Positions 3,440 through 24,934 are shown, counted from the first letter of the stretch. The stretch is DNA of 64,000 bases from Marinicella marina (GCF_030065545.1 NZ_JASJNC010000002.1:124001-188000), one strand, 5' to 3'. The notes: generated from the letters alone by a model not told the origin. Numbers and translations are program-made.

Positions 3440-3804
3440 ATGTGCCGTGTGTACTAATGGTACAACTGGAACACCAAAAGAGTCAAGAAAAAATGATGAT
3501 TCAATGGTGCTTTTTTCGAATTTGAGCTCAGTTGAGACTCAAGAGATATAAGAAATGAGATTGTTGGGGCGCAAACATTTTCAACTCTTCTTAATTGGAA
3601 TTCATTGCATGCATGTCGATTATGGTTTGATTAAATTAAATATACATCAACCTAATTATTTAAAATCAAAAAATGAGTTTTAAGCCTTTTAAAAGAGGAC
3701 CATTTTTTTGGCCGAAATCTTATTGAAATAACAACGGTTTACAACGGGTTAGATTTTTAACTATGTTCTTGACAATAGCACCAATCAAGCGGATTATAAT
3801 TAAC
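3440..3804. other. AT-rich divergent intergenic region
   Basis: This gap separates the minus-strand GntR operon from the plus-strand repeat protein. It holds the GntR promoter and palindrome (3450-3486). The rest is very AT-rich, with homopolymer A and T runs between 3640 and 3720. A 42-codon ORF at 3555-3683 has no convincing RBS and is not called. I could not pick a clear promoter for the downstream repeat protein. Confidence 0.5.
3450..3486 (-). promoter_or_regulatory. Promoter and candidate operator of the GntR operon
   Basis: On the minus strand, TTGACT (3486-3481) and TACCAT (3462-3457) are spaced by 18 nt and form a plausible sigma-70 promoter. The perfect inverted repeat TGTAC-N5-GTACA (3450-3464) covers the -10 box up to the expected transcription start. 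GTAC-centred palindromes of this kind fit GntR/YtrA operators, so autoregulation is likely. The palindrome and spacing are seen directly; the binding protein is inferred. Confidence 0.55.
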
Positions 3805-5742
3805 ATGATTGCAAAAAAAAATTATTTCATTTGTGCCAGAAAAACCCTGATTTTTATTTTTCTATTTTTTAATCATGTTTATGCCGCGCCCAGTGATGAC
3901 TTTGTGATCAAGTTAGGTACAGATACCAACAGTGTTGAGATTGAGACAGTTGGCGCAGGTTACAACTATGATATTGACTGTAATGATGATGGCATGATTG
4001 ATGCAACCAATCTGACAAGTAGTTATTCCTGTCTATACCCAACACAAGGTGGAGTGCACACAGTCAGAATCATTGGCAGTTTTCCTCGCATGAAATTTGA
4101 TTGGGATTTTCAGCCCATAGAGGTCATTCAATGGGGAAGCCAACAATGGACATCGATGGAATCGGCATTTGCAGGATCTTATCAATTGATGATTTCGGCT
4201 TCTGATACACCTGACTTAACTCAAGTAACAGACATGAGTTTTATGTTTACAGGATGTTCGAATGGAGTATTTAACTCAAGTATCTCAAACTGGGATACCT
4301 CTCAAGTAACTAGTATGATGAGACTTTTCTCTGGTGTACAAAATTTCAATCAGCCTTTGAATAATTGGAACACTTCAGCTGTGACGGATATGTCCTGGAT
4401 GTTTGCAGGATTGAAAGCAAAAGATTTGAATTTACAAATTGAAAACTGGGATACATCAAATGTCATAGACATGAATCATATGTTCTCAAATGCCACTTAT
4501 TTCAATGAAGATCTTGGTGATTGGGATACCGCAAATGTCATGGACATGTCATCCATGTTTGATGGAGCTGAATTATTTAATCAGGATATTTCTCAATGGA
4601 ATGTTTCTCAAGTCGAAAATTTTTTTGGGATGTTTTGGGATGCAAAAGAATTCAATCAGAACATTGGCACGTGGAATACAACAAAAGTAAAAAGAATGTC
4701 ATTTATGTTTCATAATGCCCACCAATTTAATCAAAACATTGGATCATGGAACACGGGTAATGTTGAAGATATGCACAGTATGTTTGACAGTGCCTATGTG
4801 TTTAATCAAGACATTGGAAATTGGAATACCTCAAAGGTAAAGGAAATGACATTTATGTTTCAAGAAGCTTATGATTTTAACCAAAATATTGGTAACTGGA
4901 ATACCACATTACTTGAGGATATGTTTGGAATGTTCTTGGATGCAAACTCATTTAACCAGGACATCAGTCAATGGGACACCAGCAAAGTTACCCGTTTAGG
5001 TTATACATTTTTCGGTGCAGGTGGAGATGACTTTGACCAGAACATCGGTGAATGGAATGTCTCAAGCTTACTTACGGGTGGTAGCATGTTAGCTGGGTCA
5101 CAAAAAATATCTACTTCGTACTATGATAATTTATTGGCTAATTGGTCAGCTCAAAACCTCAATGACAACGTTGTTATCTCTCTGGGAAGCAGTTATTTCT
5201 GTTACGGCCTGGATGACAAAACCGCTCTGATAAACAACTACAACTGGAGATTATTTGATGGAAACCAGCATTGTTTGTTTGTCGAGTTTGGGCCCGATAC
5301 AAATGACAACTTTATAACAGGAAATAACCTCCCAAGGATAGTCATAAAAGGCGAAGTCATTGATAAAGCCAGTGTAATTATTAGAGATACACTGTTAGGA
5401 ACTGCATCTGAAGGCATTGATTACCAATTCAGTGCCAATCAAATAATTAACATCCCACGAGACATTTATGACGGTGGTTTATCTCAAAGTATTGAAATAC
5501 CTGGACTACAAATACTAGAAAACGCAGCTATTGAAAATGAAAAAACCATTATTTTTGAACTTATAAATCCCAGGGGTGAGAGCAGTATTGGAGATGCAGA
5601 TGGTGACCTTCAAAACAAACAGTTCGTGGCATATGTTATCAGAGGACAAGGTCAAGTGCAGTCGGTTCCAATACCTCATATACCTCTGTTCCTGGTGATA
5701 TTAATTTTGGCTACAGTTTTTATAAAAAGACCAATAAAATAA
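3805..5742 (+). CDS. BspA-like (DUF285) leucine-rich-type repeat surface protein
   Basis: An exported protein of 645 residues with a signal peptide ending near VYA-APS. Its centre (window positions about 4210-5090) holds eleven copies of a 25-residue repeat with consensus FNQDIxxWNTSxVxxMxxMF, the DUF285/BspA repeat described in bacterial surface proteins and in Mycoplasma and Bacteroidetes lipoproteins. A Calx-beta-like tail (RVVIKGEV to IIFELINPRGESS) follows. The C-terminus has the sorting-signal shape: Pro-rich VPIPHIP, a hydrophobic stretch, then KRPIK. Start 3805 is chosen because it gives a normal signal-peptide n-region; an in-frame ATG at 3763 is possible. The gene is visibly AT-richer than its neighbours and stands alone, suggesting horizontal origin. 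The partner or ligand is unknown. Confidence 0.85.
   Translation: MIAKKNYFICARKTLIFIFLFFNHVYAAPSDDFVIKLGTDTNSVEIETVGAGYNYDIDCNDDGMIDATNLTSSYSCLYPTQGGVHTVRIIGSFPRMKFDWDFQPIEVIQWGSQQWTSMESAFAGSYQLMISASDTPDLTQVTDMSFMFTGCSNGVFNSSISNWDTSQVTSMMRLFSGVQNFNQPLNNWNTSAVTDMSWMFAGLKAKDLNLQIENWDTSNVIDMNHMFSNATYFNEDLGDWDTANVMDMSSMFDGAELFNQDISQWNVSQVENFFGMFWDAKEFNQNIGTWNTTKVKRMSFMFHNAHQFNQNIGSWNTGNVEDMHSMFDSAYVFNQDIGNWNTSKVKEMTFMFQEAYDFNQNIGNWNTTLLEDMFGMFLDANSFNQDISQWDTSKVTRLGYTFFGAGGDDFDQNIGEWNVSSLLTGGSMLAGSQKISTSYYDNLLANWSAQNLNDNVVISLGSSYFCYGLDDKTALINNYNWRLFDGNQHCLFVEFGPDTNDNFITGNNLPRIVIKGEVIDKASVIIRDTLLGTASEGIDYQFSANQIINIPRDIYDGGLSQSIEIPGLQILENAAIENEKTIIFELINPRGESSIGDADGDLQNKQFVAYVIRGQGQVQSVPIPHIPLFLVILILATVFIKRPIK
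4210..5090 (+). repeat. Eleven tandem 75-bp coding repeats (25-residue DUF285 unit)
   Basis: Within the BspA-like gene the unit with Trp-Asn/Asp-Thr-Ser and Met-x-x-Met-Phe recurs every 75 bp. Repeats 5 to 9 keep an exact 25-codon period; the first three and the last two vary by a few codons. The DNA copies have diverged at many third positions, so recent slippage is unlikely. Confidence 0.85.
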
Positions 5743-12111: not shown

Positions 12112-14562
12112 TCAGTACTCCTGTTCCCACGCCAAAGTACGCAGCATGTCGCCAAACAGGCCGGCGGCAGTGACTTCAGCTCCGGCACCATAACCGCGAA
12201 TAATGAAAGGCTTGGGTTGATAGTATTGGGTGTTGATGGCCAGGGCATTTTCTCCGGCTTCGATGTCATACAAAGGATGGGTCTTATCTACGGCCTGTAT
12301 CTTCACTGCGCATTTGCCATTTTTAATGATCGCTACATAGCGTAATTTTTGTTGTTGGTTTTCAGCCTGGTCGATTTTTTGTTGAAATTCTTGATCATAG
12401 GCCGGTAATTGTTGCATGAACGCATCGCCATCGGTGATCTCTGCCAGTGCTGGTGGTACCACGGCTTGCAGGTCAACATCGTTGAGCTCCAATGCCATGC
12501 CAGCCTCGCGAGCTATAACCAGCACTTTTCGCGCCACATCCATGCCATTCAGGTCCTCTGCTGGGTTGGGTTCGGTGTAACCTAAATCACGGGCCTTTTT
12601 GGTCGCCTCAGACAGGCTCAGACCTTGGTGAATCTCACCAAATATATAGGACAAAGAACCGGATAAGATGCCCTCAAATTGAATCAATTCATCACCGGCT
12701 CGCAACAAACTTTGCAGGTTATCAATCACTGGCAGACCAGCGCCAACATTGGTCTCATACAAAAACCTGCGCTGTCTTTTGGCGGCCATTTGATGCAATT
12801 GGTGGTAATAGGACAAGGTGTCGGTGTTGGCTTTTTTGTTGGCCGTGACTACATGAAAGTTGTGCTCCAGGTAACTCAAATAGTCCATCGCTATGCCTTG
12901 GTTACTGGTACAGTCAATGATGACTGGGTTGGTGATGTGTGCGGTGCGCACAAAATCTGCCAGCTTGGATAAGGAGAAACTGGTTTCGCTGTCGGTCAAT
13001 TGCTCTTGCCAATGTTCTAAATCCACACCATCGGCTTCGAGTAAGCATTGTCGGCTGTTGGCAATACCAATCAAGTTCAATTCAATGTTCTTTTGTTGTA
13101 ACCACTCTTGTTGTTTTTTGATTTGGGCAATCAGTTCACGGCCCACTGTGCCACAGCCAATCAAGAAGGCATCAATCCGTGGTTTTTTTAGGAACAGCTG
13201 TTGGTGACAAATCACCACCGCATCATCCACACGTTTGGCACGAACCACCGCAGAGATACTTCTTTCTGAAGAATCTTGGGCGATGGCAATGATGTTAACG
13301 CGGGCATGTGAGAGGGCACTGAAAAAACGACTGGCTGTGCCTTTTTGTTGGTGCATTTGGTCACCAATCAGGGTGATGATGGCTAAATTGTTACGGCGCT
13401 GAATCGGTTCTAATAAACCATTTTTTAATTCCAGTTTGAAAGTTTTTTCCAAGCGCCTCACGGCTTTAGTTGCTTCATCACCGGGCACACAAAAACTGAT
13501 GCTGTACTCGGATGAGGACTGGCTGATTAATATCACCGAAATTTGTGCCTCGCTCATGGTGGCAAAGACCCGAGCGGCCATTCCGACCATGCCTTTCATA
13601 CCAGGGCCTGATACATTGATCATCACCACATCAGACAGGTTGGATATGGCTTTGACCGCTTTGTGCTTGGCCGTTTCGGTGGTGATGGTGGTGCCATGGT
13701 GATCGGGGTTGTGGGTGTTCTTTATCACGCACTTGATTTGTTGATTTGCCAGTGGGGTGATGGTTTTGGGGTGTAAGATTTTAGCGCCAAAATAGGAAAG
13801 CTCCATGGCCTCCTGATAGGACATTTGTTCAATCAGTTGAGTTTCCGGCACCAAATGTGGATCGACGCTGTATATGCCATCCACATCGGTCCATATTTCA
13901 CAGGATTCAGCGTCCACACAAACAGCCAATATAGCGGCTGAATAATCTGAACCATTGCGCCCTAAAGTCACCAAGTCACCGCTGTGGTTCACGCCGTAAA
14001 ACCCCGGCATTACAGAGATATCAGTGATGGCTTGGTAATGCTTGTTGAACTCCTGTTGGCAGCGCGGTAAGTCGGCCACTGTGTCATTGACATCACTGTC
14101 GGTGTGGATGAATAAACGTGGGTCTAGGACCGTCACAGGGCTTTTCGTTCTCAGTAAGGTGGCCATCAATAATGTACTGAACTTTTCACCGCTGGAGAGG
14201 ATTTGCGCGGCAGTGATTTCAGGGCAAAAACCAATCAACTCACAACCTTGGGCCAAATGCCTCAGTTGATCTAACAAGCCCGCTGTTTGTTGCTGACTTT
14301 TACTGCTGTCAAAATCCGCTCGCAAAGCCACACAATCGGCACTGATGGTCAATAATTTTTGACTGATTAAATCCAATTGCGAAGTCAGGTTTTGTTGTTG
14401 GTTGATCAGTTCAATCAAAGTCACCAGATCATTGGTGATGCCTTGGGGTGCAGAAAACACTGCAGCAACGGGTTGTTGTTGCTGTTCAATCAAGGCGACG
14501 ACATGGTTAAATTTTTCTGCTGAGGCCAGTGATGAGCCCCCGAATTTCATAACTTTTATCAT
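12112..14562 (-). CDS. thrA: Bifunctional aspartokinase I / homoserine dehydrogenase I
   Basis: Catalyses the first and third steps of the aspartate-to-threonine pathway. 816 residues, matching E. coli ThrA (820). The N-terminal aspartokinase starts VMKFGGSSLAS and contains the GRNGSDYSAA substrate loop. Two ACT regulatory regions follow (VNVSGPGMKGMVGMAARVF and IITLIGDQM). The homoserine dehydrogenase begins at FLIGCGTVGRELI (NAD(P)-binding) and has the YETNVGAGLPVI and GILSGSLSYIF catalytic segments. First structural gene after a Thr/Ile leader peptide and attenuator, so transcription should fall when charged tRNA-Thr and tRNA-Ile are plentiful. Feedback inhibition by threonine is family knowledge. 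Confidence 0.96.
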   Translation of the reverse strand: MIKVMKFGGSSLASAEKFNHVVALIEQQQQPVAAVFSAPQGITNDLVTLIELINQQQNLTSQLDLISQKLLTISADCVALRADFDSSKSQQQTAGLLDQLRHLAQGCELIGFCPEITAAQILSSGEKFSTLLMATLLRTKSPVTVLDPRLFIHTDSDVNDTVADLPRCQQEFNKHYQAITDISVMPGFYGVNHSGDLVTLGRNGSDYSAAILAVCVDAESCEIWTDVDGIYSVDPHLVPETQLIEQMSYQEAMELSYFGAKILHPKTITPLANQQIKCVIKNTHNPDHHGTTITTETAKHKAVKAISNLSDVVMINVSGPGMKGMVGMAARVFATMSEAQISVILISQSSSEYSISFCVPGDEATKAVRRLEKTFKLELKNGLLEPIQRRNNLAIITLIGDQMHQQKGTASRFFSALSHARVNIIAIAQDSSERSISAVVRAKRVDDAVVICHQQLFLKKPRIDAFLIGCGTVGRELIAQIKKQQEWLQQKNIELNLIGIANSRQCLLEADGVDLEHWQEQLTDSETSFSLSKLADFVRTAHITNPVIIDCTSNQGIAMDYLSYLEHNFHVVTANKKANTDTLSYYHQLHQMAAKRQRRFLYETNVGAGLPVIDNLQSLLRAGDELIQFEGILSGSLSYIFGEIHQGLSLSEATKKARDLGYTEPNPAEDLNGMDVARKVLVIAREAGMALELNDVDLQAVVPPALAEITDGDAFMQQLPAYDQEFQQKIDQAENQQQKLRYVAIIKNGKCAVKIQAVDKTHPLYDIEAGENALAINTQYYQPKPFIIRGYGAGAEVTAAGLFGDMLRTLAWEQEY

Positions 14563-14584: not shown

Positions 14585-14624
14585 AAAAAAAAGCCCGTGA
14601 AATGTTTCCATGTCACGGGCTTTT
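14585..14624 (-). terminator. Thr-operon attenuator (intrinsic terminator)
   Basis: On the minus strand, AAAGCCCGTGA (14623-14613) pairs with TCACGGGCTTT (14600-14590) around a 12-nt loop and is followed by an uninterrupted run of eight T (14592-14585). It lies between the leader peptide and thrA. The 5' arm segment AGCCCGTGAC (14621-14612) can instead pair with GTCATGTGCT in the leader (14653-14644), with 9 of 10 positions matched counting one G-U. That would act as antiterminator. Confidence 0.9.
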
Positions 14625-14641
14625 GCTGTTTTTTCAACGAG

Positions 14642-14704
14642 TCAGCACATGACGTTTTTTAGTCTTGTAATCGTTGTTCGGATTGTGCTTACTTCGCGGT
14701 TCAT
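14642..14704 (-). CDS. thrL: thr operon leader peptide
   Basis: A 20-residue leader peptide reading M-N-R-E-V-S-T-I-R-T-T-I-T-R-L-K-N-V-M-C. Residues 7-13 (TIRTTIT) contain all four Thr and both Ile, as in E. coli ThrL. The stop lies 18 nt before the 5' arm of the attenuator. Codons 6-7 (AGC ACA, 14689-14684) can pair with TGTGCT at the 3' end of the leader (14649-14644), completing the 1:2 / 2:3 / 3:4 arrangement of a ribosome-mediated attenuator. No strong RBS is visible (AAGAACC). Too short for routine gene callers. Confidence 0.88.
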   Translation of the reverse strand: MNREVSTIRTTITRLKNVMC

Positions 14705-14759: not shown

Positions 14760-17700
14760 TCAATAGATGTCAAAAGACAGGCCCAAACTGAAGTCACGGC
14801 CTTTGGTGAATGTGCGAGTGATTTCGTCCCCTTGTAGGAACAGCACTTCATCATCCAATAAGTTTTTGGCTTTGAAACTCAGTTTCCAACGACCAGCAAA
14901 GGCATGGGTGTATACAAAGTCGACTTGTTGGAACGGTTGTTCATAGATATCAGGGCTGCCACTGGTGCCAGCTTCCGAAATCCGCTCACCAAACTGGTTA
15001 AACAGTAATGATGCGTTGATGCCGTTGTCTTTGTTGTCGTAACCAAATTGGATGTTGGCGACATAAGGTGATTGTCCTTGTAGGGGTCTGACGTTATTGG
15101 TTTGGCCAGAGGGCCCATCGGTGTCCAGCTGAATTTCTGAATCAATGTAAGCATAGTTGGCACTGACGTAGAAATTGGCAAAGCGTTCGCTGATGAAAGA
15201 AAATTCTTTGTAAACCTCTAACTCAACACCAGCATTTTCTGCGGCCAAAGCATTCTGAAAGCTGATGATGTTGGATGATCCCGGTAAAATGGTGACCTCA
15301 ATCGGTTGCTCAAACTCTTTATAAAATAAACTCAATGAAACAAACTCACCGGGAGAAAAGTATTTGTCCCAGCGTAAGTCATAATGGGTGATCCTACCTG
15401 CGACCAGGTCAGGGTTACCAATCACATTGCGATTCAGTACGGGGTCCTTAAACTGGGCTGAAGACAATTCTTTGAAGTCAGGTCGTGTGGCCGTCTCAGA
15501 ATAGTTGAAACGGAATTGATGTGACTCATTCATGATCCATGTGGATGAAAAGGCTGGAAACCATTCATCGTTCAACAAACTCGCAGTGACCGGACTTTGA
15601 TCGGGATCAAATAATCTGAATGTGGTGACTGATTGATTAAACACTTCACGCCTGGCACCCAAGGTAAAACGCAAATCTTCTTTGTAAGCATAATCAATGC
15701 CGTAATAGGTTCCTTTGATATCGAGGTTGGCGAAGTAGTTATCGGTGGCACGCGTGACTTCAATTAACTGGTAGCCATTGGGGCCAATGAAGTTGGGGTT
15801 GAGGATTTCACTGAGTGAATCAGATCGATCGGCTTCATCTGCCAGTGGGCCTGAATCTTCAAAAACAAAACGACGGATGTCGGAGTTACGTTCCTTTTTC
15901 ACCCAGTTCTGTCCAAACTGAAACAACAGGTCGTGGTTGTTACCGAAAGTCAGTGGAAAATCGAGGTCATAACGGACGTTGCGACTTTGATCAGCCAACT
16001 CACGGAAAACCCTCGAGTTGGAGTCATTTCTGGATGAAAACACAAAATCACCCTCATCACGTTGATCATAGCGGTATACCCGATTGTCTGGCTCTTCAAA
16101 GGTAGCCTCAGAATCGGTGAATTGCCAGTTCAGTTTGAGATCTCCTAAGACAGGATAACTGTGCTCCCCAAAGAACTGAGTCGATGTCAGGTCTCTCTCA
16201 GTCCAACGCAATTCATAGATTCTTCTCGAGTTTCCTAAATCTTCATTGAACCCCTCAGCAATTTCAGTGAAGTTTTGGGTGCTGCGCAACAACATGTAGT
16301 TGGCAGCTATTTCGTGTTGGTCATTGAACTCGATGCCAGTGGTTAAAAACCCACTGGCATTGATGTCGCGATTGGTGGTGGTTGAATTTTCTTCACTCTC
16401 CAAGCCCAATTCAGTGCCGGTAGAGACGTTGTAACTGCGACGCAATTCTGAGCGTGACTCAAAATCACTGCCATACTCTAAAGCAGCAGAGAAGCCCAAG
16501 GCTGTGCCTGACTCCAGATCAAAACGCATGCCGCCAGCGGCATCAAAGCCGACACCTGGATCTATGTTGGCAAACCTCAAATCGTAATTTGAATTCAATG
16601 ACTCACCAAAAATTTCAAGTTCCTCGGGGCTGAACCCACCATCGAAAAAAGGGTTGTTAGGTCGCAGTTCAGTATCACCTGCTATGGCATCAGCCAACAC
16701 GCGTGGCAGCGCCCGGGTGCCATCATCCATACCGGTCCAATCATCATCACCGCCCTGGTATTTCAGGCCTTTTTTGCCAGTGGTTTGCGAGTTGTGGCCA
16801 TAAGAAAGGCCGATGTTCAGAAAGTTTTCTTCTGGTACATTGATGGTGCGAAGCACCACCGTCCCACCTCCAAATTCAGCAGGTAAGTGCGAAGCATAAC
16901 CTTTCTGCACTTCGATGCTCTCAATGATGCTGGTAGGGAATAAATCCAGTGGAACCACGCGACGTGTGGGATCGGGACTGGGTAAGTTGGCACCGTTCAA
17001 AAGGGTGCTTGAATAACGTTCTCCTAAGCCGCGAATAAAGATGAATCGACCATCAACCAAAGTCAAGCCTGTCACCCGTTTCAAGGCGCCAGCAGCATCC
17101 GAGTCACCCGACTTACTCATTTGTTCCATACTCAGGTAGTTCGCCACCGAGTTGTTGGCACGGCGTTCCTCGAGCACCGAGGCCAAAGAGCCCTCAATGA
17201 AAGGTTCAACCACCACAAACTCAGGCAGCTCGGCACCGGCTGGGGTGAGTTCGATATTGATTTCATTGCCTGCTGGATCGGTGAGATTTAAATCATTTTT
17301 AATTTGACTGTTGAACTGCGCGTGTAACACGCTGATGTTGTAATTACCAGCGCTTAATTCAGTACTGAATTGGCCTTTTTCATTGGTGGTTAAATACGCT
17401 GATAGACCAGAGATATAGACTTTTGCGCCTTTCACAGGTCTTTGGTTTTCGGCATCAGTGACGGTGCCGTTGACCGGTACAGTGATGGCATCTTCTGCCA
17501 CCTTGGCAACACTTTCAGTTAAAGTTTTTTGGTCAACCGAACTTTCTACGTCAACCATTGGGTTTTCGTCACCTTTAACCTTGAAATCAATCAACAATTG
17601 CATCAACTCGCCGGCTTGCAAATTGAATTGATGCTGGTAGATCAAATCACCACTTGATTGGAAGTTAAGGGTGGTGGGTCCAGCGGGTAAATCAATTTGT

Positions 17701-17879
17701 GCCAAACCAGCGGCGTCCGTCACAGCAATTACTTCTTGATCGACAGTTATTTCAATGTCACTCAATGGACTGCCCTTGAGAAACATGAATATGTTGATTT
17801 GCGCATTTTGAGCACCGACCGCGCTGATGCTGAGCAGCATTAAACAGGAAAAAGCCACTTTTTGAATGGTTGTATACAT
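14760..17879 (-). CDS. TonB-dependent outer-membrane receptor with N-terminal carboxypeptidase-regulatory-like domain
   Basis: A 1039-residue outer-membrane active transporter. The signal peptide ends near SAVGAQ. Next comes a Thr/Asp-rich stretch and a carboxypeptidase-regulatory-like beta-sandwich (VNGTVTDAENQRPVKGAKVY, about 130-210). The plug domain (FIRGLGERYSSTLLNG, then RVVPLDLFPTSIIESIEVQKGY) leads into a large 22-strand-type barrel ending in an aromatic residue (LSFDIY). The GLGERY-type plug is typical of large receptors that travel with DUF3450/ExbB loci. ATG 17879 is chosen because it gives a proper signal peptide; a longer frame overlaps the TPR gene. It is the last gene of the TonB locus, 32 nt after the TPR gene. 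Ligand unknown. Confidence 0.92.
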   Translation of the reverse strand: MYTTIQKVAFSCLMLLSISAVGAQNAQINIFMFLKGSPLSDIEITVDQEVIAVTDAAGLAQIDLPAGPTTLNFQSSGDLIYQHQFNLQAGELMQLLIDFKVKGDENPMVDVESSVDQKTLTESVAKVAEDAITVPVNGTVTDAENQRPVKGAKVYISGLSAYLTTNEKGQFSTELSAGNYNISVLHAQFNSQIKNDLNLTDPAGNEINIELTPAGAELPEFVVVEPFIEGSLASVLEERRANNSVANYLSMEQMSKSGDSDAAGALKRVTGLTLVDGRFIFIRGLGERYSSTLLNGANLPSPDPTRRVVPLDLFPTSIIESIEVQKGYASHLPAEFGGGTVVLRTINVPEENFLNIGLSYGHNSQTTGKKGLKYQGGDDDWTGMDDGTRALPRVLADAIAGDTELRPNNPFFDGGFSPEELEIFGESLNSNYDLRFANIDPGVGFDAAGGMRFDLESGTALGFSAALEYGSDFESRSELRRSYNVSTGTELGLESEENSTTTNRDINASGFLTTGIEFNDQHEIAANYMLLRSTQNFTEIAEGFNEDLGNSRRIYELRWTERDLTSTQFFGEHSYPVLGDLKLNWQFTDSEATFEEPDNRVYRYDQRDEGDFVFSSRNDSNSRVFRELADQSRNVRYDLDFPLTFGNNHDLLFQFGQNWVKKERNSDIRRFVFEDSGPLADEADRSDSLSEILNPNFIGPNGYQLIEVTRATDNYFANLDIKGTYYGIDYAYKEDLRFTLGARREVFNQSVTTFRLFDPDQSPVTASLLNDEWFPAFSSTWIMNESHQFRFNYSETATRPDFKELSSAQFKDPVLNRNVIGNPDLVAGRITHYDLRWDKYFSPGEFVSLSLFYKEFEQPIEVTILPGSSNIISFQNALAAENAGVELEVYKEFSFISERFANFYVSANYAYIDSEIQLDTDGPSGQTNNVRPLQGQSPYVANIQFGYDNKDNGINASLLFNQFGERISEAGTSGSPDIYEQPFQQVDFVYTHAFAGRWKLSFKAKNLLDDEVLFLQGDEITRTFTKGRDFSLGLSFDIY

Positions 17880-17911
17880 ACAGGTTTTACTCAATTCTAG
17901 AATGTTGGTGC

Positions 17912-19057
17912 TTACTGGCAGCGCCAGACTTCGGCTGCACAATCAGCCATTATTTTTCTCACCTCGACTGCTCTTTGAAACAGTTGAGCATCAGTGATAC
18001 GAGACAGGTATGATTCTGCTTTGTCGTAGTCTCCAACCTTGAATAAGGCATATGCCAGGGCATATTGGATGTTTTCATCGTCATCGATGCGGTTACGCAA
18101 GATGTCTTGCTCCATGTTGGCGGCTTGTTCAAAATTACCCAGTTCAATTAACAGCCCCAAACGTTGTTTTAATTTTTGTCGCTGATCATCTACCAATGAA
18201 TTAACAGTCAAGGCCAAATGACGTTGTCCGGATCGACGGTACAGTTCAGCTGCTTCGCTCAGTAGGGCTTTATCAGTCAGCGCCAGTTGGTGCACCAAAC
18301 CAGCAGCTGCATGAAAAGATTGGTTGCTGATGTAAGTGGCAGCCAGTGCTTTGGCCACATCAGGGTGGTTGGGGAATTTCAATTTGGCTCGTTCTAAAAA
18401 ACGCAGCGCTAAAATCAAATTACCAGAGGCCCTTAAGGCATTACCGATACCGACATAATCATCGGCATCAGCTTGGTATTTTTCCAGGTATTCTAGACCA
18501 AGTTCAGCGGCTGTTGAATTTAGCCCCAACTCAATCAGGTAAAATATTTTTCGCCGCGGGAAAGCCGCATCTTGTGGAAAAATCAAACTGGCTTGGTCCA
18601 TCACTGCAATCGCCATGTCATATTGTTTGAGTAACCAATGAGACTGGCCTCGCATGTGATAAACCGAAGGAATTGTGGCCACAGCATCACCTGCACTGTT
18701 CAAGGCATCGATGGCCATTTGATACTGTTCGGTAGCAAATGCCGATTGTGCCAAGTAAACGTTGATAACTGAATCAACTTCACCCAATGTCTTGGCAGCG
18801 ACAAAGGCGTCAATGGCAGCTTGATTTTCACCTTTTCTGACTTGCAGCAGACCATTTAAAACATGGTACCGTTTGACATCAGTGTCCTCAGCGTCTAGAT
18901 CAACTGATGACAGCGCAATGGCAGCACGCTCGAGGTTGTTGTCTTTAAGCATCAGTGATGCCAGTTCCAAATAGTTCACCTCATCTGCATTGTCATCATC
19001 AGCAATCGCAGGTTGCAGTGCCAATAAAAGCAGTGTCAGTATCAACAGAAATTTCAT
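17912..19057 (-). CDS. Exported TPR-repeat protein of the TonB locus
   Basis: 381 residues with a signal peptide (MKFLLILTLLLLALQPAIAD) and a body of tetratricopeptide-type helix pairs, for example SVYHMRGQSHWLLKQYDMA, NHPDVAKALAATYISNQSF and NIQYALAYALFKVGDYDKA. It is expected in the periplasm. Start is the ATG at 19057 with GAG 7 nt upstream, inside the spacer after tonB. A periplasmic TPR protein between tonB and its receptor is a recurrent part of this locus type. It may help TonB recognise the receptor or stabilise the complex; that role is inference. Confidence 0.85.
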   Translation of the reverse strand: MKFLLILTLLLLALQPAIADDDNADEVNYLELASLMLKDNNLERAAIALSSVDLDAEDTDVKRYHVLNGLLQVRKGENQAAIDAFVAAKTLGEVDSVINVYLAQSAFATEQYQMAIDALNSAGDAVATIPSVYHMRGQSHWLLKQYDMAIAVMDQASLIFPQDAAFPRRKIFYLIELGLNSTAAELGLEYLEKYQADADDYVGIGNALRASGNLILALRFLERAKLKFPNHPDVAKALAATYISNQSFHAAAGLVHQLALTDKALLSEAAELYRRSGQRHLALTVNSLVDDQRQKLKQRLGLLIELGNFEQAANMEQDILRNRIDDDENIQYALAYALFKVGDYDKAESYLSRITDAQLFQRAVEVRKIMADCAAEVWRCQ

Positions 19058-19076
19058 ATCACTCAATCACAACAGA

Positions 19077-19721
19077 TTAACTTAAGTCGAAGCGGATGCG
19101 TTGTTTGGCCCATGATTTGACAGACTGGCCCTGGTATTGAGCTGGTTCAAACTTCCAGCTGTTGATACCTTGCATGGCCACTTCATCAAATATACCACTG
19201 GGATAAGACTCAACAATTTTAACTTGCTCAATCTCACCTGTGATACCAATCAGTAATGAGAAAACCACATAACCCTCAATGCCTTTGGCGCGTGCACGAG
19301 GCGGATAAACCATGGGTGCTTGCCACACGGCTTTGGGTGATTGATCAACGGTGTCATCAGTCATGATCACACCACTGCCGTTACCCAGAATGTCGCCATC
19401 CAAGCCGTTCAAACCGTCCATAGAGAAGTCAGGCAAGCCCAAATCTAAGCCACCTAAAGAACTGTTTAACCCAAGCAGCGGCGTCGGTGGGGCTTGACGG
19501 GCACGTTTTGGTTTTGGCTTCGGTTTTGGTTTTCTGATTTCTTGTTTCGGCTTTGGTTTTTGTTTTTGAATTTTGATGTTGGTGCCATCAATACTGTCCG
19601 CTTTGGTCATCAGGTTTTCTGAGTCATTGATTAATATCAACGTTCCTAAAACCAAAACAGTTCCAAACATCATGGAACCCAAAGCCGCTAAGTTGCGTTT
19701 CATTTTTTCTGCTTTTTTCAT
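19077..19721 (-). CDS. tonB: TonB-family energy transducer
   Basis: Transmits proton-motive-force energy from ExbB/ExbD to outer-membrane receptors. 214 residues: one N-terminal TM (about 11-31), a periplasmic Pro-Lys spacer (KPKPKQEIRKPKPKPKPKRA), and a C-terminal TonB domain with VYPPRARAKGIEGYVVFSLLIG and a SYPSGIFDEVAMQ-to-WKFEPAQYQG pattern (YP box). The start overlaps the exbD stop (TGATG). The locus has its own ExbB, ExbD and TtpC-like protein, so this TonB is probably dedicated to the linked receptor. Confidence 0.93.
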   Translation of the reverse strand: MKKAEKMKRNLAALGSMMFGTVLVLGTLILINDSENLMTKADSIDGTNIKIQKQKPKPKQEIRKPKPKPKPKRARQAPPTPLLGLNSSLGGLDLGLPDFSMDGLNGLDGDILGNGSGVIMTDDTVDQSPKAVWQAPMVYPPRARAKGIEGYVVFSLLIGITGEIEQVKIVESYPSGIFDEVAMQGINSWKFEPAQYQGQSVKSWAKQRIRFDLS

Positions 19722-20131
19722 CAGCCTGCTCCTACTTCTTTTATCGTTGCTACACCCACATCTGACGCACCGGCCAGACGGGCTTGGTCAACCACTTCAA
19801 CTAATTTGCCAGAGGGCACATTTTCATCGGTGACCACCAAAACCGATTTCTGGGTTTTGGTTTTCAATAAATCTCTTAATCTGGATTGAATTACCCAAGA
19901 ACGGATGCCCTCACCATCCATATAAACTTCACCCGCATTGTCGATGTACAAACGCACTGCTTTGGTCGAGGCAGCACTGGAAGATGAAGCGGCTGGACGT
20001 TCCAGGTCTAGTTTCATGTCTTTGACAAAAGTGGTACTGACCATAAAAAAGATTAACAGGATAAAAACCATGTCAATCAATGGTGAGATGTTTAAGTCTT
20101 GGACCGTTTCTTTACTTTCTCTGTATCTCAT
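19721..20131 (-). CDS. exbD: ExbD proton-channel subunit
   Basis: 136 residues with a single N-terminal TM carrying the essential Asp in ISPLIDMVFILLIFFMVSTTF, then the periplasmic ExbD/TolR domain ending GASDVGVATIKEVG. It works with ExbB to couple proton flow to TonB. The gene lies 19 nt after the small exbB and overlaps tonB by one base. Confidence 0.94.
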   Translation of the reverse strand: MRYRESKETVQDLNISPLIDMVFILLIFFMVSTTFVKDMKLDLERPAASSSSAASTKAVRLYIDNAGEVYMDGEGIRSWVIQSRLRDLLKTKTQKSVLVVTDENVPSGKLVEVVDQARLAGASDVGVATIKEVGAG

Positions 20132-20150
20132 ATAATTTCTCTCTATGACC

Positions 20151-20762
20151 TCAAGCTGTTTTGGGTTGAATGTCAGGGATTGGGCAACACAAATAATCTT
20201 TTAGTTGTGCCATTTCAATTTCTAATGTTTTTTGTTTTTTATCTAATATGCCATTGACAATCAAACCAGGAATTGACACGGCCAAGCCCATTTGAGTAGT
20301 TATCAGTGCTTGAGAAATACCGCCTGCGATACCACCCGACTGAGAAAACAACGACATGTCTCCCAGCGAGTCAAACGTTTCAATCATGCCTGATACAGTG
20401 CCAAGCAAGCCCAACAAAGGTGCCACCAGAACTATGGTGGTGATGAGCACTTTGTATTTTCTGATTTCATTGGCTTCTTCAGCAAAAGCATCATCTAAAT
20501 AACGACGCAAATCAGGCAGGTTTTGATCTCGTAACTTCATGCCTTTTTTCAGCACTCGGGTCAACACGCCTTGATTGGTTGGTAATATGCCTTGCATCTG
20601 ACGATCAACCATCACCCGAGGGCTGCGCAGAGAACCTCGTCGCAGTGCCATCATGCGGTAGCCCAGTGTCCACCACAAAACAACCGTAGCAACAAGCAAT
20701 GGTGGCATGACATAACCACCTGATTGAAAGTAACCCAGTAGTTGTTGAATGACATCACTCAT
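20151..20762 (-). CDS. exbB: ExbB / MotA-TolQ-family proton-channel protein (short form)
   Basis: 203 residues with three TM segments: about 15-35, then the paired channel helices around VAPLLGLLGTVSGMIETF and ISQALITTQMGLAVSIPGLIVNGIL. The cytoplasmic loop between TM1 and TM2 is family-like. It forms the ExbB pentamer around ExbD. It follows a larger ExbB-like protein (TtpC type), giving the two-ExbB arrangement known from Vibrio TonB2 systems. Confidence 0.92.
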   Translation of the reverse strand: MSDVIQQLLGYFQSGGYVMPPLLVATVVLWWTLGYRMMALRRGSLRSPRVMVDRQMQGILPTNQGVLTRVLKKGMKLRDQNLPDLRRYLDDAFAEEANEIRKYKVLITTIVLVAPLLGLLGTVSGMIETFDSLGDMSLFSQSGGIAGGISQALITTQMGLAVSIPGLIVNGILDKKQKTLEIEMAQLKDYLCCPIPDIQPKTA

Positions 20763-20781
20763 GATTCAATCACGCGTCCAA

Positions 20782-22173
20782 TTAAGAAAAAACTTTTTTG
20801 TAGACGTTGATGGCACGCAAAGCGGCTTTTTCCATGTCGTCTTTGATGCGTTCTGCCCACCCTGACAGCATGTTGCCAAACAACAACGCAGGGATAGCAA
20901 CTGCCAGACCCACTTCAGTGGTTACCAGGGCGATTGAAATACCACTTGAGAGTAATTTAGGGTCGCCAGTACCAAATTCAGTGATGATGTCGAATGTTGA
21001 AATCATGCCAGTCACTGTGCCTAACAGACCCAACAGTGGTGCCACCGTGGCAATCACTATGATCATCGAACCAAAGCGGTTTAATTGGCTTGACTCGTGC
21101 AAGATGGACTCAGAAACAATGTCCTCTATGTGGTCACGATCGCGATCAATGTTACGCAAGGCTGAGAGCAATACGCGTGATGATGATGAGGATTCTTTGT
21201 GGGCCAGTTGGATCGCTGCATCAACATCTTTCTGTTCAATTTTGTTGACCACTTTGGTCAGCAGCTTTTCAGTGCTGGCAGATGCGCGGTTCAAAAAGAA
21301 CGATCTGAGTATGATTAACAACAAAGCAACCATACCCAAAGCAGCAATGATCCAAGCAATGATGCCACCAGAGTTGATAACGCTGAGGATGCTCTTTTGT
21401 TGTTTCTCCTCAATCGCTTTGATCGAAGATTCATACAAAAAGATGGGTAATAAGCCGCTGGAGTTACCATTGAATAAGCCTTCAACGGCTGCCGGGTCAC
21501 TGTCCTGCCAAACTTTGAATTGTTTTTCACCGGCTGGTGCCAATACGCCTGAACCTTTGGCGCTGTTACCATAAGAGGCAATGTTGCCTACTTTCATGAT
21601 GGTGCCGTTAACCGCGGTACCGTCGGTCAAGAAAAATTCACCCGCTTGGGTGGTGATATTGGATTTTTCAGTGAGGGTTTGAGTGGCTAAATTTACCAGC
21701 TCTTTGACCTTGTCCAAATCAGATGGTGCTTGCTCAGCTGCCTCTGGGAAACCTTCGAAGCCAAATTCGCTCATGGTAGATTGTGCCTGTATGATGGTTG
21801 ATTCCAGCAGTCCTTGGTTGTCTTGAGCAGATTCAGAGCTTCTTTGAATGGCAAAAATTTCATCTTCCAATTCACCGGCAGTCGCTTCTGCGTTCAACAA
21901 TTGATTTTCAAGGGCTGAAATTTCAGTTTCAATCTGACGTTTTTCAACAGCGGTGCTTTGTTGGTACTCGGCCAAACGTTTTTTGATGTTATTGACTTGC
22001 GATGTTAAGAATGCGTATTCTTTCTTGTAAGCCAAGTTCAAATCTTGTTGCGCTTGCGCTGGGTCGGCTGCTGGCACGAGTGGTTCAGCAGCAGGCTCAA
22101 CTGCTTGGTTGTTATCTTGTGCGCTAACTACAGGGCAAATAATGAACAGCAATAGGTATAAATAATTTCTCAT
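20782..22173 (-). CDS. TtpC-like protein: ExbB/MotA domain with long periplasmic coiled-coil extension
   Basis: 463 residues. A signal peptide (ending VVSAQD) is followed by a periplasmic coiled coil (about 40-130, for example EISALENQLLNAEATAGELEDEI) and a beta-rich linker. The C-terminal MotA/TolQ/ExbB domain has TM helices near 268 (IIAWIIAALGMVALLLIIL) and a channel pair at IVIATVAPLLGLLGTVTGM and SIALVTTEVGLAVAIPALLFG. This architecture matches TtpC, the fourth essential component of Vibrio TonB2 systems. RBS AGGAAG 5 nt before the ATG. It lies 14 nt downstream of the DUF3450 gene. Confidence 0.88.
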   Translation of the reverse strand: MRNYLYLLLFIICPVVSAQDNNQAVEPAAEPLVPAADPAQAQQDLNLAYKKEYAFLTSQVNNIKKRLAEYQQSTAVEKRQIETEISALENQLLNAEATAGELEDEIFAIQRSSESAQDNQGLLESTIIQAQSTMSEFGFEGFPEAAEQAPSDLDKVKELVNLATQTLTEKSNITTQAGEFFLTDGTAVNGTIMKVGNIASYGNSAKGSGVLAPAGEKQFKVWQDSDPAAVEGLFNGNSSGLLPIFLYESSIKAIEEKQQKSILSVINSGGIIAWIIAALGMVALLLIILRSFFLNRASASTEKLLTKVVNKIEQKDVDAAIQLAHKESSSSSRVLLSALRNIDRDRDHIEDIVSESILHESSQLNRFGSMIIVIATVAPLLGLLGTVTGMISTFDIITEFGTGDPKLLSSGISIALVTTEVGLAVAIPALLFGNMLSGWAERIKDDMEKAALRAINVYKKVFS

Positions 22174-22187
22174 GGTACTTCCTGTGA

Positions 22188-22994
22188 TTATTGAGATGAA
22201 CTCAAGTCCAGTGGCAAACTGAAATAGCCCTGTCTGATTTGTTTTTTCAAAGAGTCGAATAAGGTTGCCACTGATTGTGTGGCTTTTTCGTCAGTCAGCA
22301 ATTGGTATTGCCATGTACCGCCGTTGTTCACTGCTTGGCCATAACGATCATCCCTGGTTTTAAAGTACATCAACACGGTACCTAACTTGGCCACATCAAC
22401 CAAAACTTGTTCGCCTGCTAAGGTGATGGTTTGTGAATAAATCGCATTCTCTCGGGTCAAACGCATCTCATCTTCTAAAAATGCCCACAAGCGGTTGATG
22501 GCACCTTGTGCTGAAACCTTTCTGCCTTCTATATCACGCATGATGTCCTCAATCACGCTGCTGCGTTCTTTATATTTGAAGGGGATGCCGCTGTCGATGA
22601 CTGTTTTTATTTGTGCTGCCATTTGCAGCACTTCAGGAATCATTTGTTCAGAATCGAGACCCAAAGATTTGATGTTTTCTTGTAAGTTAACCACTTCTGC
22701 TTGTGTCTGTTTGATTTGCAGTTGTTTGCGGTCAATGTTGGCCTCTAACTCAGTTTTTCTGATATTAAGGTAGCTCATTGATTGGGTGTGTTCAGCTTTT
22801 AAAATTTGCATCTCTGCTTGCAAATCTTCAACCTGGCCACGTAACTGGATTAAGTTGTTAACGATTTCATCGGTGTCTTGTTGTGCCATGACCGGCAAAT
22901 ACGAGGATGAACAGCCCAAGATGAGTGACCATTTCACCCAATGCATGGAACGGTTGAATTTAACTTTTTGCGACATGATTAATCTGATTGACAT
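22188..22994 (-). CDS. DUF3450 periplasmic coiled-coil protein of the TonB locus
   Basis: 268 residues with a signal peptide (ending near PVMAQQ), then a long coiled coil (about 50-110: LIQLRGQVEDLQAEMQILKA and the following heptads) and a C-terminal globular part. It fits the DUF3450 family, which is almost always encoded next to TtpC/ExbB/ExbD/TonB genes. Its biochemical role is not established; a periplasmic scaffold beside the TtpC coiled coil is my inference. First gene of the seven-gene minus-strand operon (DUF3450 to the receptor). ATG 22994 is used; an ATG at 22976 is possible. Confidence 0.85.
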   Translation of the reverse strand: MSIRLIMSQKVKFNRSMHWVKWSLILGCSSSYLPVMAQQDTDEIVNNLIQLRGQVEDLQAEMQILKAEHTQSMSYLNIRKTELEANIDRKQLQIKQTQAEVVNLQENIKSLGLDSEQMIPEVLQMAAQIKTVIDSGIPFKYKERSSVIEDIMRDIEGRKVSAQGAINRLWAFLEDEMRLTRENAIYSQTITLAGEQVLVDVAKLGTVLMYFKTRDDRYGQAVNNGGTWQYQLLTDEKATQSVATLFDSLKKQIRQGYFSLPLDLSSSQ

Positions 22995-23016
22995 TTAAGA
23001 TGCGGCAAATTTTAAG
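22988..23016 (+). promoter_or_regulatory. Candidate promoter of the beta-helix protein gene
   Basis: A consensus TTGACA (22988-22993) and TTTAAG (23011-23016) are 17 nt apart. The -35 overlaps the start codon of the divergent DUF3450 gene. A start near 23023 would give a leader of about 160 nt. Confidence 0.45.
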
Positions 23017-23042
23017 AACCTAATGTGACAGTATGGTTACCT

Positions 23043-23158
23043 TTACGGTTAAATTTTCTTATTAGCTATTTAATAAGGAGTGATGTCGCTGTTGTCACAG
23101 AAACTTCATAAACTGGTCACTTAATTGAAACATCTGAACCGTAACATTTCGGTTTTTT
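23043..23158 (+). promoter_or_regulatory. Possible leader-controlled attenuator upstream of the beta-helix protein
   Basis: TTACGGTT (23043-23050) is the exact reverse complement of AACCGTAA (23137-23144). The first part of the latter, AACCG (23137-23141), also forms a hairpin with CGGTT (23150-23154), ending in six T (23153-23158). The two pairings exclude each other, as antiterminator and terminator would. Between them lies a 13-codon ORF (23083-23124). The terminator stem is only 5 bp, so this is tentative. Confidence 0.35.
23083..23124 (+). CDS. Possible leader peptide, 13 residues
   Basis: Reads M-S-L-L-S-Q-K-L-H-K-L-V-T. AAGGAG precedes the ATG, but with only 2 nt spacing, which is short. 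Four of 13 residues are Leu. It sits between two segments that can pair with each other (23043-23050 and 23137-23144). It may be chance. Confidence 0.25.
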   Translation: MSLLSQKLHKLVT

Positions 23159-23182
23159 GTAATTCCTACACGAGGTGTTTTG

Positions 23183-24934
23183 ATGAAATTGGGTATTTTA
23201 AAAGCCGCATTATTGGGCGGTGTATTGGTAGCGGGTTCGGCAGCAGCAATCACTGTTGATGAGAACTTTGAAGGTCAGTGGTACAACGGTCCAGCTGGTG
23301 ATAATGGCACAGGTTGGCAGTTTGACTACATTAAAACCGGTCCAGAAAGAGGTGTAATATTTGTTACTGGATTCGTTTACGGTGATGATGGCAGCCCAAC
23401 TTGGGTAACGGGTAACAGCGTTGTTTTGGACGGTGAATCTAACTTGTCAATCGACTTGATTGAAGTGACTGATGGTGCTTTTGTGGGTGCCAGTGATCGT
23501 GCAGTTAATGCCTTTGGTTCAGCTGAACTGGACTTCAAATCGTGCCGTTCTTTGTCGATGGACATCAGCAACATCAGCAGTGCGTTTATATCTGAGACTG
23601 AAGCTTCATTCGACTTGCAACCGGCTGATGAAATTGGTGGTTTTGTCAGAGACGCTTCGGTTTGTCCTTACCAAACTGAATTCACCGGTTGTCCAGCTTT
23701 TGCTACAACCACTGCTCAACCTAAAACTTGTGCCATCTCAGGTACTTTAACAGGTGATGTGACATTGACTAACGACACCAACTGGGTATTGCAGGGTGGT
23801 GTATTTGTTGGTGAAGACGGTGGCGCAACGGCCAACTTAACTGTTGAGCCAGGTACTCGCGTATTGGGCGTTACAGGTAATGACTTCCTAGCGGTACAAC
23901 GTGGTTCTAAAATCTTTGCAGAGGGTACAGCCAATGCGCCTGTGGTATTCACAGGTCCGTTCAATGCATCAGACCCGTCAGCCGGTGCTGGTAACTGGGG
24001 TGGTTTGGTCATCAATGGTCAAGCGCCTATCAACATTTGTGGTGATGAAGTGCCATTCGCTCAATGTGAAGACGTGGGTGAGGGTGGTTCTGGCAACTTC
24101 GGTGGTGATGATCCAACTGACTCAAGTGGTGTATTGAAATACGTTCGTGTGCAGTTCGGTGGATTCAGAATCAACGATGAAGACGAGTTGAACGGTATCG
24201 CTTTCCAAGGTGTTGGTTCAGGCACAACGGTTGAGTATGTGCAAGTGCATGCCAATGAAGATGACGGCATCGAATTCTTTGGTGGTACAGTCAATGCCAA
24301 GTATTTGGTATTAACGGGTATCAGGGATGATTCTTTGGATTGGACTCACGGTTGGGACGGTAATGTACAGTATGTGTTGGTGCAACAAGACCCAAATGCC
24401 GCAGCCGACAAAGAGCGTGGTATTGAAGCGGATAACTTCGAAGACAACAATGATGCCACACCTCGTTCGCAGCCAAGCATTGCCAACGCCACTTTCATTG
24501 GTGGGCCATCTGACAACAAAACCACCACTGGTATGGTGTTACGACGTGGAACGGGTTTCAACATGACCAACGTGATCGTAACTGGTTTTGAACGTTGTTT
24601 AGACCTTGATTCAGATGCGACTTTTGCAGCAGCTGGTTCACCTGATAATCTAACAGGTACAGCCACCATGGAAAACACCATCATCAGCTGTGATGTGAAT
24701 TTCGATGAAGAAGCTGAAGACGCGTTTTCAGTACAAGCTTTCTTTGAAGCACAAATGGGTAACCAAGTGGCTGATCCTGCATTGGATGGCATCTACCCAA
24801 CAGCCAACACACCAGGTGTGATGGCGATCGACAGCGATAAGTTTGGTTCATTTTTTGATAAAACCAATTACGCGGGTGCCTTCAAATCGCAAGTAGGTGC
24901 TTGGACCAATGGCTGGACTGAGTTCTTGGATTAA
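23183..24934 (+). CDS. Secreted beta-helix-like protein divergent from the TonB locus
   Basis: 583 residues, exported (signal MKLGILKAALLGGVLVAGSAAA). Residues about 28-75 form a small W/G-rich domain (WYNGPAGDNGTGWQ, then DDGSPTW) that recurs in the large secreted protein at 51399-55886. From about 180 on, the pattern of short strands, Asn/Asp/Gly turns and phrases such as LTVEPGTRVLGV, GGLVINGQAPI, LKYVRVQFGG and NEDDGIEFFGGTV suggests a right-handed parallel beta-helix. Ending as SQVGAWTNGW. Paired cysteines occur. The ATG at 23183 has GAGG at 7 nt. Divergent from the DUF3450-TonB operon, it is a candidate extracellular partner of that receptor, possibly for substrate capture; function unproven. 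A strong terminator follows. Confidence 0.8.
   Translation: MKLGILKAALLGGVLVAGSAAAITVDENFEGQWYNGPAGDNGTGWQFDYIKTGPERGVIFVTGFVYGDDGSPTWVTGNSVVLDGESNLSIDLIEVTDGAFVGASDRAVNAFGSAELDFKSCRSLSMDISNISSAFISETEASFDLQPADEIGGFVRDASVCPYQTEFTGCPAFATTTAQPKTCAISGTLTGDVTLTNDTNWVLQGGVFVGEDGGATANLTVEPGTRVLGVTGNDFLAVQRGSKIFAEGTANAPVVFTGPFNASDPSAGAGNWGGLVINGQAPINICGDEVPFAQCEDVGEGGSGNFGGDDPTDSSGVLKYVRVQFGGFRINDEDELNGIAFQGVGSGTTVEYVQVHANEDDGIEFFGGTVNAKYLVLTGIRDDSLDWTHGWDGNVQYVLVQQDPNAAADKERGIEADNFEDNNDATPRSQPSIANATFIGGPSDNKTTTGMVLRRGTGFNMTNVIVTGFERCLDLDSDATFAAAGSPDNLTGTATMENTIISCDVNFDEEAEDAFSVQAFFEAQMGNQVADPALDGIYPTANTPGVMAIDSDKFGSFFDKTNYAGAFKSQVGAWTNGWTEFLD

Follow-up and report, generated by a model that had tools for sequence, protein, structure and literature searches.

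A Candidate PhoB-Controlled Outer-Membrane Uptake Locus in Marinicella marina, with a Secreted β-Helix Protein and an Apparently Dedicated TonB2-Type Motor

We analyzed a 64,000-nucleotide stretch of the Marinicella marina genome (GCF_030065545.1 NZ_JASJNC010000002.1:124001-188000), referred to here as the window; all coordinates are window positions. It contains a TonB operon of seven minus-strand genes, which encode, in transcription order, DUF3450, TtpC, ExbB, ExbD, TonB, and TPR proteins and a TonB-dependent receptor. Across an intergenic gap of 188 bp, a divergent plus-strand gene encodes a secreted right-handed β-helix protein (BHP). A first-pass annotation of this DNA had described seven same-strand genes with a full TonB2-type set, together with the divergent BHP gene, and this description was borne out; all eight open reading frames lie where it had placed them and the Pfam matches agree. 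Chance adjacency of the BHP and TonB genes was ruled out, as this combination of genes is found again in other phyla.

The BHP gene (23183..24934, plus strand; start revised to the ATG at 23183) encodes a 583-residue protein with an SPI-type signal peptide and no lipobox, probably a relative of the ElpS and FI–FIII proteins discussed below. It shares the divergent promoter region (22995..23182) with the TonB operon. The first operon gene (22188..22994, minus strand, as are the remaining six) is ttpB-like and encodes a DUF3450 periplasmic coiled-coil protein (95 bits against a Pfam cut-off of 32.6), which a tree places in a divergent, BHP-linked clade. It is followed by a ttpC-like gene (20782..22173), whose product has a MotA/TolQ/ExbB domain and a long periplasmic N-terminal part, and by genes for an ExbB-like proton-channel subunit (20151..20762), an ExbD-like protein whose membrane segment contains a conserved Asp (LIDMVFILLIFF; 19721..20131), a TonB-like protein with a TonB C-terminal domain (19077..19721), and a TtpD-like periplasmic TPR protein (17912..19057, with the start revised to 19057). 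These assignments come from Pfam matches to MotA_ExbB (ExbB and the longer TtpC), ExbD, TonB_C, and TPR. The receptor gene (14760..17879) lies in an open reading frame of 1,060 amino acids and most likely starts at the ATG at 17879, which provides a signal peptide, rather than at an overlapping TTG at 17942. The receptor consists of an N-terminal domain, a CarboxypepD_reg domain, a TonB-box-like EFVVV, a plug, and a barrel (PF13715, 49.8 bits; PF13620, 62.9 bits; Plug, 48.7 bits).

In a survey of 274 genomes of the class, 20 had BHP relatives and 18 had receptor orthologs (called at E ≤ 1e-20); all 18 were BHP-positive. The two BHP-only genomes (G202 and G240) carry a different form of the protein, in which an N-terminal stretch and a membrane segment replace the signal peptide. 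A scan of named genomes added 80 BHP loci, of which the closest is that of Marinicella meishanensis (86%). The receptor was present in 60 of the 64 BHP loci that have at least 7 kb on both sides, and it lies within 400 bp of BHP in 67/86 loci, with the six-gene operon intervening in most others. At least four motor parts were adjacent in 28 of the 64 well-flanked loci. Because of these counts, the receptor is the constant partner of BHP and the motor is an optional third part. The first-pass annotation had proposed one dedicated transport system with BHP as its partner. The receptor pairing supports that proposal (60/64 loci and 18/18 genomes), and BHP is not usually found alone; the complete TonB locus, with at least four motor parts in only 28/64 loci, is not obligatory. 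A second kind of BHP relative, with a non-secreted N-terminal stretch and a membrane segment, occurs without a receptor at L042 (9351-11354) and L047 (18446-19999), as well as at L040, L041, and L043. The L047 copy adjoins pst and phoU genes, and proteins of this kind are possibly inner-membrane, phosphate-related β-helix proteins.

The six motor genes follow the order of the Vibrio vulnificus TonB2 operon, ttpB-ttpC-exbB-exbD-tonB-ttpD (PMC6957404), with DUF3450 first and TPR last. This six-gene motor is thus of the Vibrio TonB2 type, and by analogy its DUF3450 protein corresponds to TtpB and its TPR protein to TtpD. The first-pass annotation had regarded both as uncharacterized proteins without established roles, a view that has to be revised given that the V. 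vulnificus counterparts, TtpB2 (DUF3450) and TtpD2 (TPR), are essential for siderophore uptake and TonB2 iron transport (PMC6957404). The host genome contains a second complete six-gene operon (G000:C12, about 414.8-419.9 kb) that has neither a receptor nor a BHP gene. In this genome, 11 proteins match TonB_C above the cut-off and about 15 have a plug domain; the receptor-free operon could serve the roughly 14 plug-domain receptors other than that of the window. Because a complete operon exists elsewhere, the motor in the window is apparently an additional, dedicated copy.

In a tree of DUF3450 proteins, the window protein falls in a clade of 25 rows that are all BHP-linked and belong to Gammaproteobacteria, Bdellovibrionota, and Myxococcota. 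A second clade contains 26 general copies and 16 BHP-linked ones, the latter mainly from Alteromonadales. The tree rows were partly collected via BHP; a count in the 274 genomes is free of that bias, and there all nine full-length divergent DUF3450s sit within about 12 kb of a BHP gene. The window TtpB thus belongs to a specialized divergent clade that was found only beside BHP. At least three label changes are needed on the tree (two if only well-supported branches are counted), so the motor and the BHP–receptor pair have probably been joined more than once.

BHP has no Pfam or NCBIfam match and no sequence match in the PDB. Its AlphaFold2 model (mean pLDDT 85) contains a right-handed β-helix over about residues 165–540, which resembles tailspikes, NosD, AlgE4/AlgG, and PL6 lyases (Z about 22, root-mean-square deviation 3–4 Å) and agrees with the β-helix that the first-pass annotation had proposed. 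A small β-barrel-like domain (about residues 32–147) precedes it, for which Foldseek returned designed barrels, lipocalins, and an avidin, and a conserved YxGA...W...GWT motif lies at the C terminus. Among 34 family members, residues N337, D360, D361, E364, D382, D383, D386, E415, and (mostly) D417 are invariant or almost so. The conserved acids are spaced roughly one helix coil apart and form a ladder on one face of successive coils, which may bind a phosphate-bearing ligand by way of Ca2+. Assigning BHP to a known enzyme from its fold was rejected, since the β-helix matches are generic and the best Foldseek E value is only 1e-3.

The β-helix core is common to 100 related loci. The number of helical units varies, from one in the window protein to two in many relatives and apparently three in relatives of 1,300-1,410 residues (L086, L090, L093, L102, L105, L106, L110, L112, and others). 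A lipobox pattern was detected in 65 of 99 relatives and in neither the window BHP nor that of M. meishanensis. Elsewhere in the M. marina genome (contig C17; L137, 6738-8585), a 616-residue secreted protein has weak similarity to the N-terminal domain of BHP, and genes for a response regulator and a histidine kinase follow it.

BHP genes have PhoB, PhoR, PstS, PstC/A, PstB, PhoU, Ppk1, and Ppx genes among their neighbors, as confirmed by NCBIfam models. At strict thresholds, 28 of the 100 loci contain at least one of PhoB, PhoR, Pst, PhoU, Ppk1, and Ppx, and 23 contain either pst/phoU or phoB together with phoR; these come from Alpha- and Gammaproteobacteria, Myxococcota, and other phyla. By our own estimate, roughly half a percent of random 20-kb stretches of a 4-Mb genome would contain such phosphate genes. 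A looser neighbor count (PhoB-like in 26 loci) took in other response regulators, and the strict counts were used instead. Two loci with the divergent layout of the window (L062 and L078) have pstB and phoU on the flank. The nutrient signal, which the first-pass annotation did not name, is predicted from these sequences to be phosphate.

Two Pho boxes are predicted in the divergent promoter region. The one directed toward BHP (23092..23120, plus strand) comprises three 11-bp repeats, TTGTCACAGAA ACTTCATAAAC TGGTCAC (i.e., TTGTCAC-N4-ACTTCAT-N4-TGGTCAC), and its triple-repeat score was reached by none of 3000 dinucleotide shuffles. The other faces the TonB operon (23025..23042, minus strand) and reads AGGTAACCATACTGTCAC (i.e., AGGTAAC-N4-CTGTCAC). 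Both are kept in M. meishanensis and their cores are kept in L062 and L078 (the triple repeat partly); the TGACA core of the operon-facing box is invariant in the four aligned promoters. The pst promoter of the host itself has the same three-repeat geometry (TTGTTACAAAAATGTCATAAAACTGTCAC), and no comparable site was found at the general TonB2 operon of the host. Across the related loci, Pho-box scoring gave higher values 5' of BHP genes than 5' of 908 further genes from those loci (median 21.5 versus 16.2, p about 7e-28). Scores upstream of DUF3450 (TtpB) genes are also raised (p 1.5e-8), and those upstream of the operon-internal TtpC genes are not (p 0.41). Iron regulation was rejected, with the best Fur-like site in the common promoter matching only 11 of 19 bases. 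The best PhoB candidate in the host genome scores 289 bits, just below the cut-off of 296 (the next response regulator scores 203); PstB scores 405 bits, and the genome has its own pst operon.

Phosphate starvation has been linked to similar proteins before. ElpS (CC0170) of Caulobacter crescentus is a surface lipoprotein induced by phosphate starvation, whose gene adjoins that of the receptor CC0171 and type II secretion genes (PMC2996285). Its release needs type II secretion but its surface display does not, and its overproduction was accompanied by alkaline phosphatase activity in supernatants (PMC2996285). The co-occurrence of elpS with the receptor gene was already remarked upon by those authors (PMC2996285). 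A Flavobacterium johnsoniae study describes three low-phosphate lipoproteins, FI, FII, and FIII, with 31–36% identity to ElpS and polygalacturonase-like models; FI and FII are induced by phosphate depletion, and FII is encoded in a phoBR cluster beside a TonB-dependent transporter (PMC8115612). Among our loci, several from Alphaproteobacteria (L064, L065, L069, L070, L074, L076, L091, L094, L133, and L184) have the BHP–receptor pair directly 5' of type II secretion genes, as in Caulobacter. Indioceanicola profundi (L184) has the Caulobacter-like order BHP-receptor-gspC-D-E-F-G, and a secretin gene is nearby in nine other alphaproteobacterial loci. This synteny, together with the published similarity of FI–FIII to ElpS, makes BHP a probable homolog in the ElpS/FI–FIII family. 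It is classed here as a probable ElpS homolog and not as an extracellular lipoprotein, because the window protein lacks a lipobox.

We consider it reasonably probable that the locus serves to take up a phosphorus-containing ligand across the outer membrane and is controlled by PhoB. Gene content, homology, the near-obligate BHP–receptor pairing, the Pho boxes, the pho/pst linkage, and the specialized TtpB clade were all computed, and from them we infer PhoB binding, a surface location of BHP, the nature of the ligand, the direction of transport, and the role of the acidic ladder. When phosphate is low, PhoB would bind the two predicted Pho boxes and switch on BHP and the seven-gene operon. BHP, which has a signal peptide, would be exported (type II secretion is present in the genome) and act at or near the cell surface, where the acidic ladder of its β-helix may bind or process the phosphorus ligand, perhaps via bound Ca2+. 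The ligand or its product would then be handed to the dedicated receptor for passage through the outer membrane, with energy from the operon's own TonB-ExbB-ExbD motor and its TtpC, TtpB, and TtpD components.

Several observations weigh against this proposal. The Caulobacter receptor gene was reported to be constitutive, and a change in intracellular phosphate was not detected (PMC2996285). The link to ElpS is indirect, coming from synteny (L184 and other alphaproteobacterial loci) and the published FI–FIII similarity. A motor is nearby in fewer than half of the BHP loci, and surface retention of the window BHP is uncertain because it lacks the lipid anchor found in 65/99 relatives. In 3% of shuffles a single half-site pair does as well as in the window promoter and is thus only mildly unusual; the weight falls on the triple repeat. 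The Pho-box p-values are inflated because the loci are phylogenetically related. An ordinary second TonB2 system for iron or siderophores, lying by chance beside an unrelated secreted protein, would account for a six-gene order identical to that of V. vulnificus TonB2 (PMC6957404), but we regard it as very improbable in view of the predicted Pho boxes where a Fur box would be expected, the phosphate-gene synteny, the strict BHP pairing, the separate TtpB clade, and the second general motor in the genome.

The main rival on the direction of transport is that the receptor exports BHP by TonB-powered secretion, leaving BHP as cargo with a phosphate role outside the cell. Oar of Myxococcus xanthus, which combines CarboxypepD_reg and plug domains, secretes the protease PopC (PMC6434023), and the window receptor has the architecture by which the Oar subclass is defined, a CarboxypepD_reg N-terminal extension with a plug (PMC6434023). 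In Caulobacter, a type II deletion left ElpS at the surface (PMC2996285), and one receptor paired with one secreted protein suits a cargo and its exporter. The CarboxypepD_reg domain is, however, equally typical of SusC importers, and the host genome has type II secretion. Two thirds of the BHP relatives are lipoprotein-like and better suited to an anchored cap, repeated β-helix domains of up to about 1,370 residues would be a very large cargo, and deletion of cc0171 in Caulobacter did not stop ElpS production (surface localization was not reported). Export of BHP is unlikely in our judgment, and we hold it distinctly unlikely that the receptor and private motor form a phosphate-starvation protein exporter, which would make them a widespread TonB-powered secretion pathway in several phyla and not an importer. 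BHP might instead be a surface enzyme (a lyase, hydrolase, or phosphodiesterase) that frees a phosphorus fragment from a polymer, the receptor importing the product without contacting BHP. The fold is common to many polysaccharide lyases, hydrolases, and epimerases, the invariant acids lie on successive coils, and ElpS overproduction was associated with alkaline phosphatase activity in supernatants (PMC2996285). Yet no known family could be recognized in BHP by a catalytic signature, the Foldseek matches are weak (best E 1e-3), and NosD, part of an ABC transporter complex, has a β-helix, so the fold alone does not identify an enzyme. We rate this possibility as rather unlikely.

The pairing of BHP with a receptor and its link to phosphate starvation are already known in outline from one paper on Caulobacter and another on Flavobacterium (PMC2996285, PMC8115612). 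The new part is the private motor; BHP and the receptor are a known and poorly understood phosphate-starvation pair. In the open-access literature searched, we found no TonB2-type motor described as dedicated, equipped with a TtpB clade of its own, and Pho-controlled, and nothing relevant on a TtpC/ExbD system under PhoB. Porins are the route by which phosphate and phosphoesters are commonly assumed to pass the outer membrane. The presence in Pseudomonadota, Bdellovibrionota, and Myxococcota of a PhoB-linked receptor that has a private proton-driven motor suggests that many bacteria invest energy in importing a specific phosphorus compound that is large or scarce. For ElpS and FI–FIII, unexplained proteins that are prominent in low-phosphate exoproteomes, this offers a concrete hypothesis. 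The divergent DUF3450 clade provides a sequence marker for finding such systems, and the direction of transport, import or export, becomes directly testable.

Two further features of the window were recorded. Between the receptor gene and thrA (12112-14562), the minus strand at 14585-14704 contains a putative leader peptide (MNREVSTIRTTITRLKNVMC) and, after it, a strong hairpin with a T run (-21.7 kcal/mol). The hairpin was first read as the terminator of the TonB operon; that reading was dropped in favor of a possible threonine-operon attenuator, which fits better, and the candidate has no Rfam family match. At 3763-5742 (plus strand), a 659-residue protein carries the DUF285 repeat four times (334 bits); this family was described from Mycoplasma and is here present in a gammaproteobacterium.

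The locus can be compared with several known systems. Like the window, Oar–PopC of M. xanthus combines a CarboxypepD_reg receptor that has Ton genes of its own with one dedicated secreted protein. There the secreted protein, PopC, is a protease that leaves the cell through Oar; for BHP such export is the less likely reading. SusC/SusD-type importers, including PusCD, also combine a CarboxypepD_reg-extended TonB receptor with a partner that is often surface lipidated, but the partner in the window is a β-helix and not a SusD fold, with no SusD Pfam match. In ElpS–CC0171, a secreted protein of the phosphate-starvation response is paired with a TonB-dependent receptor, as its probable homolog is in the window. 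ElpS, however, is a lipoprotein encoded beside type II secretion genes, whereas the window BHP lacks a lipobox and is accompanied by a private TonB motor. FI, FII, and FIII share the adjacent TonB transporter but are Bacteroidota lipoproteins, and the accessible part of their description mentions no neighboring TtpB/C/D motor (PMC8115612). TonB2 and TonB3 of V. vulnificus agree with the window motor in all six genes and in their order. Iron limitation induces TonB2, for which a Fur site is predicted and which works for several siderophores; the window system differs in its predicted Pho boxes, its in-operon receptor, its BHP partner, and its divergent TtpB clade.

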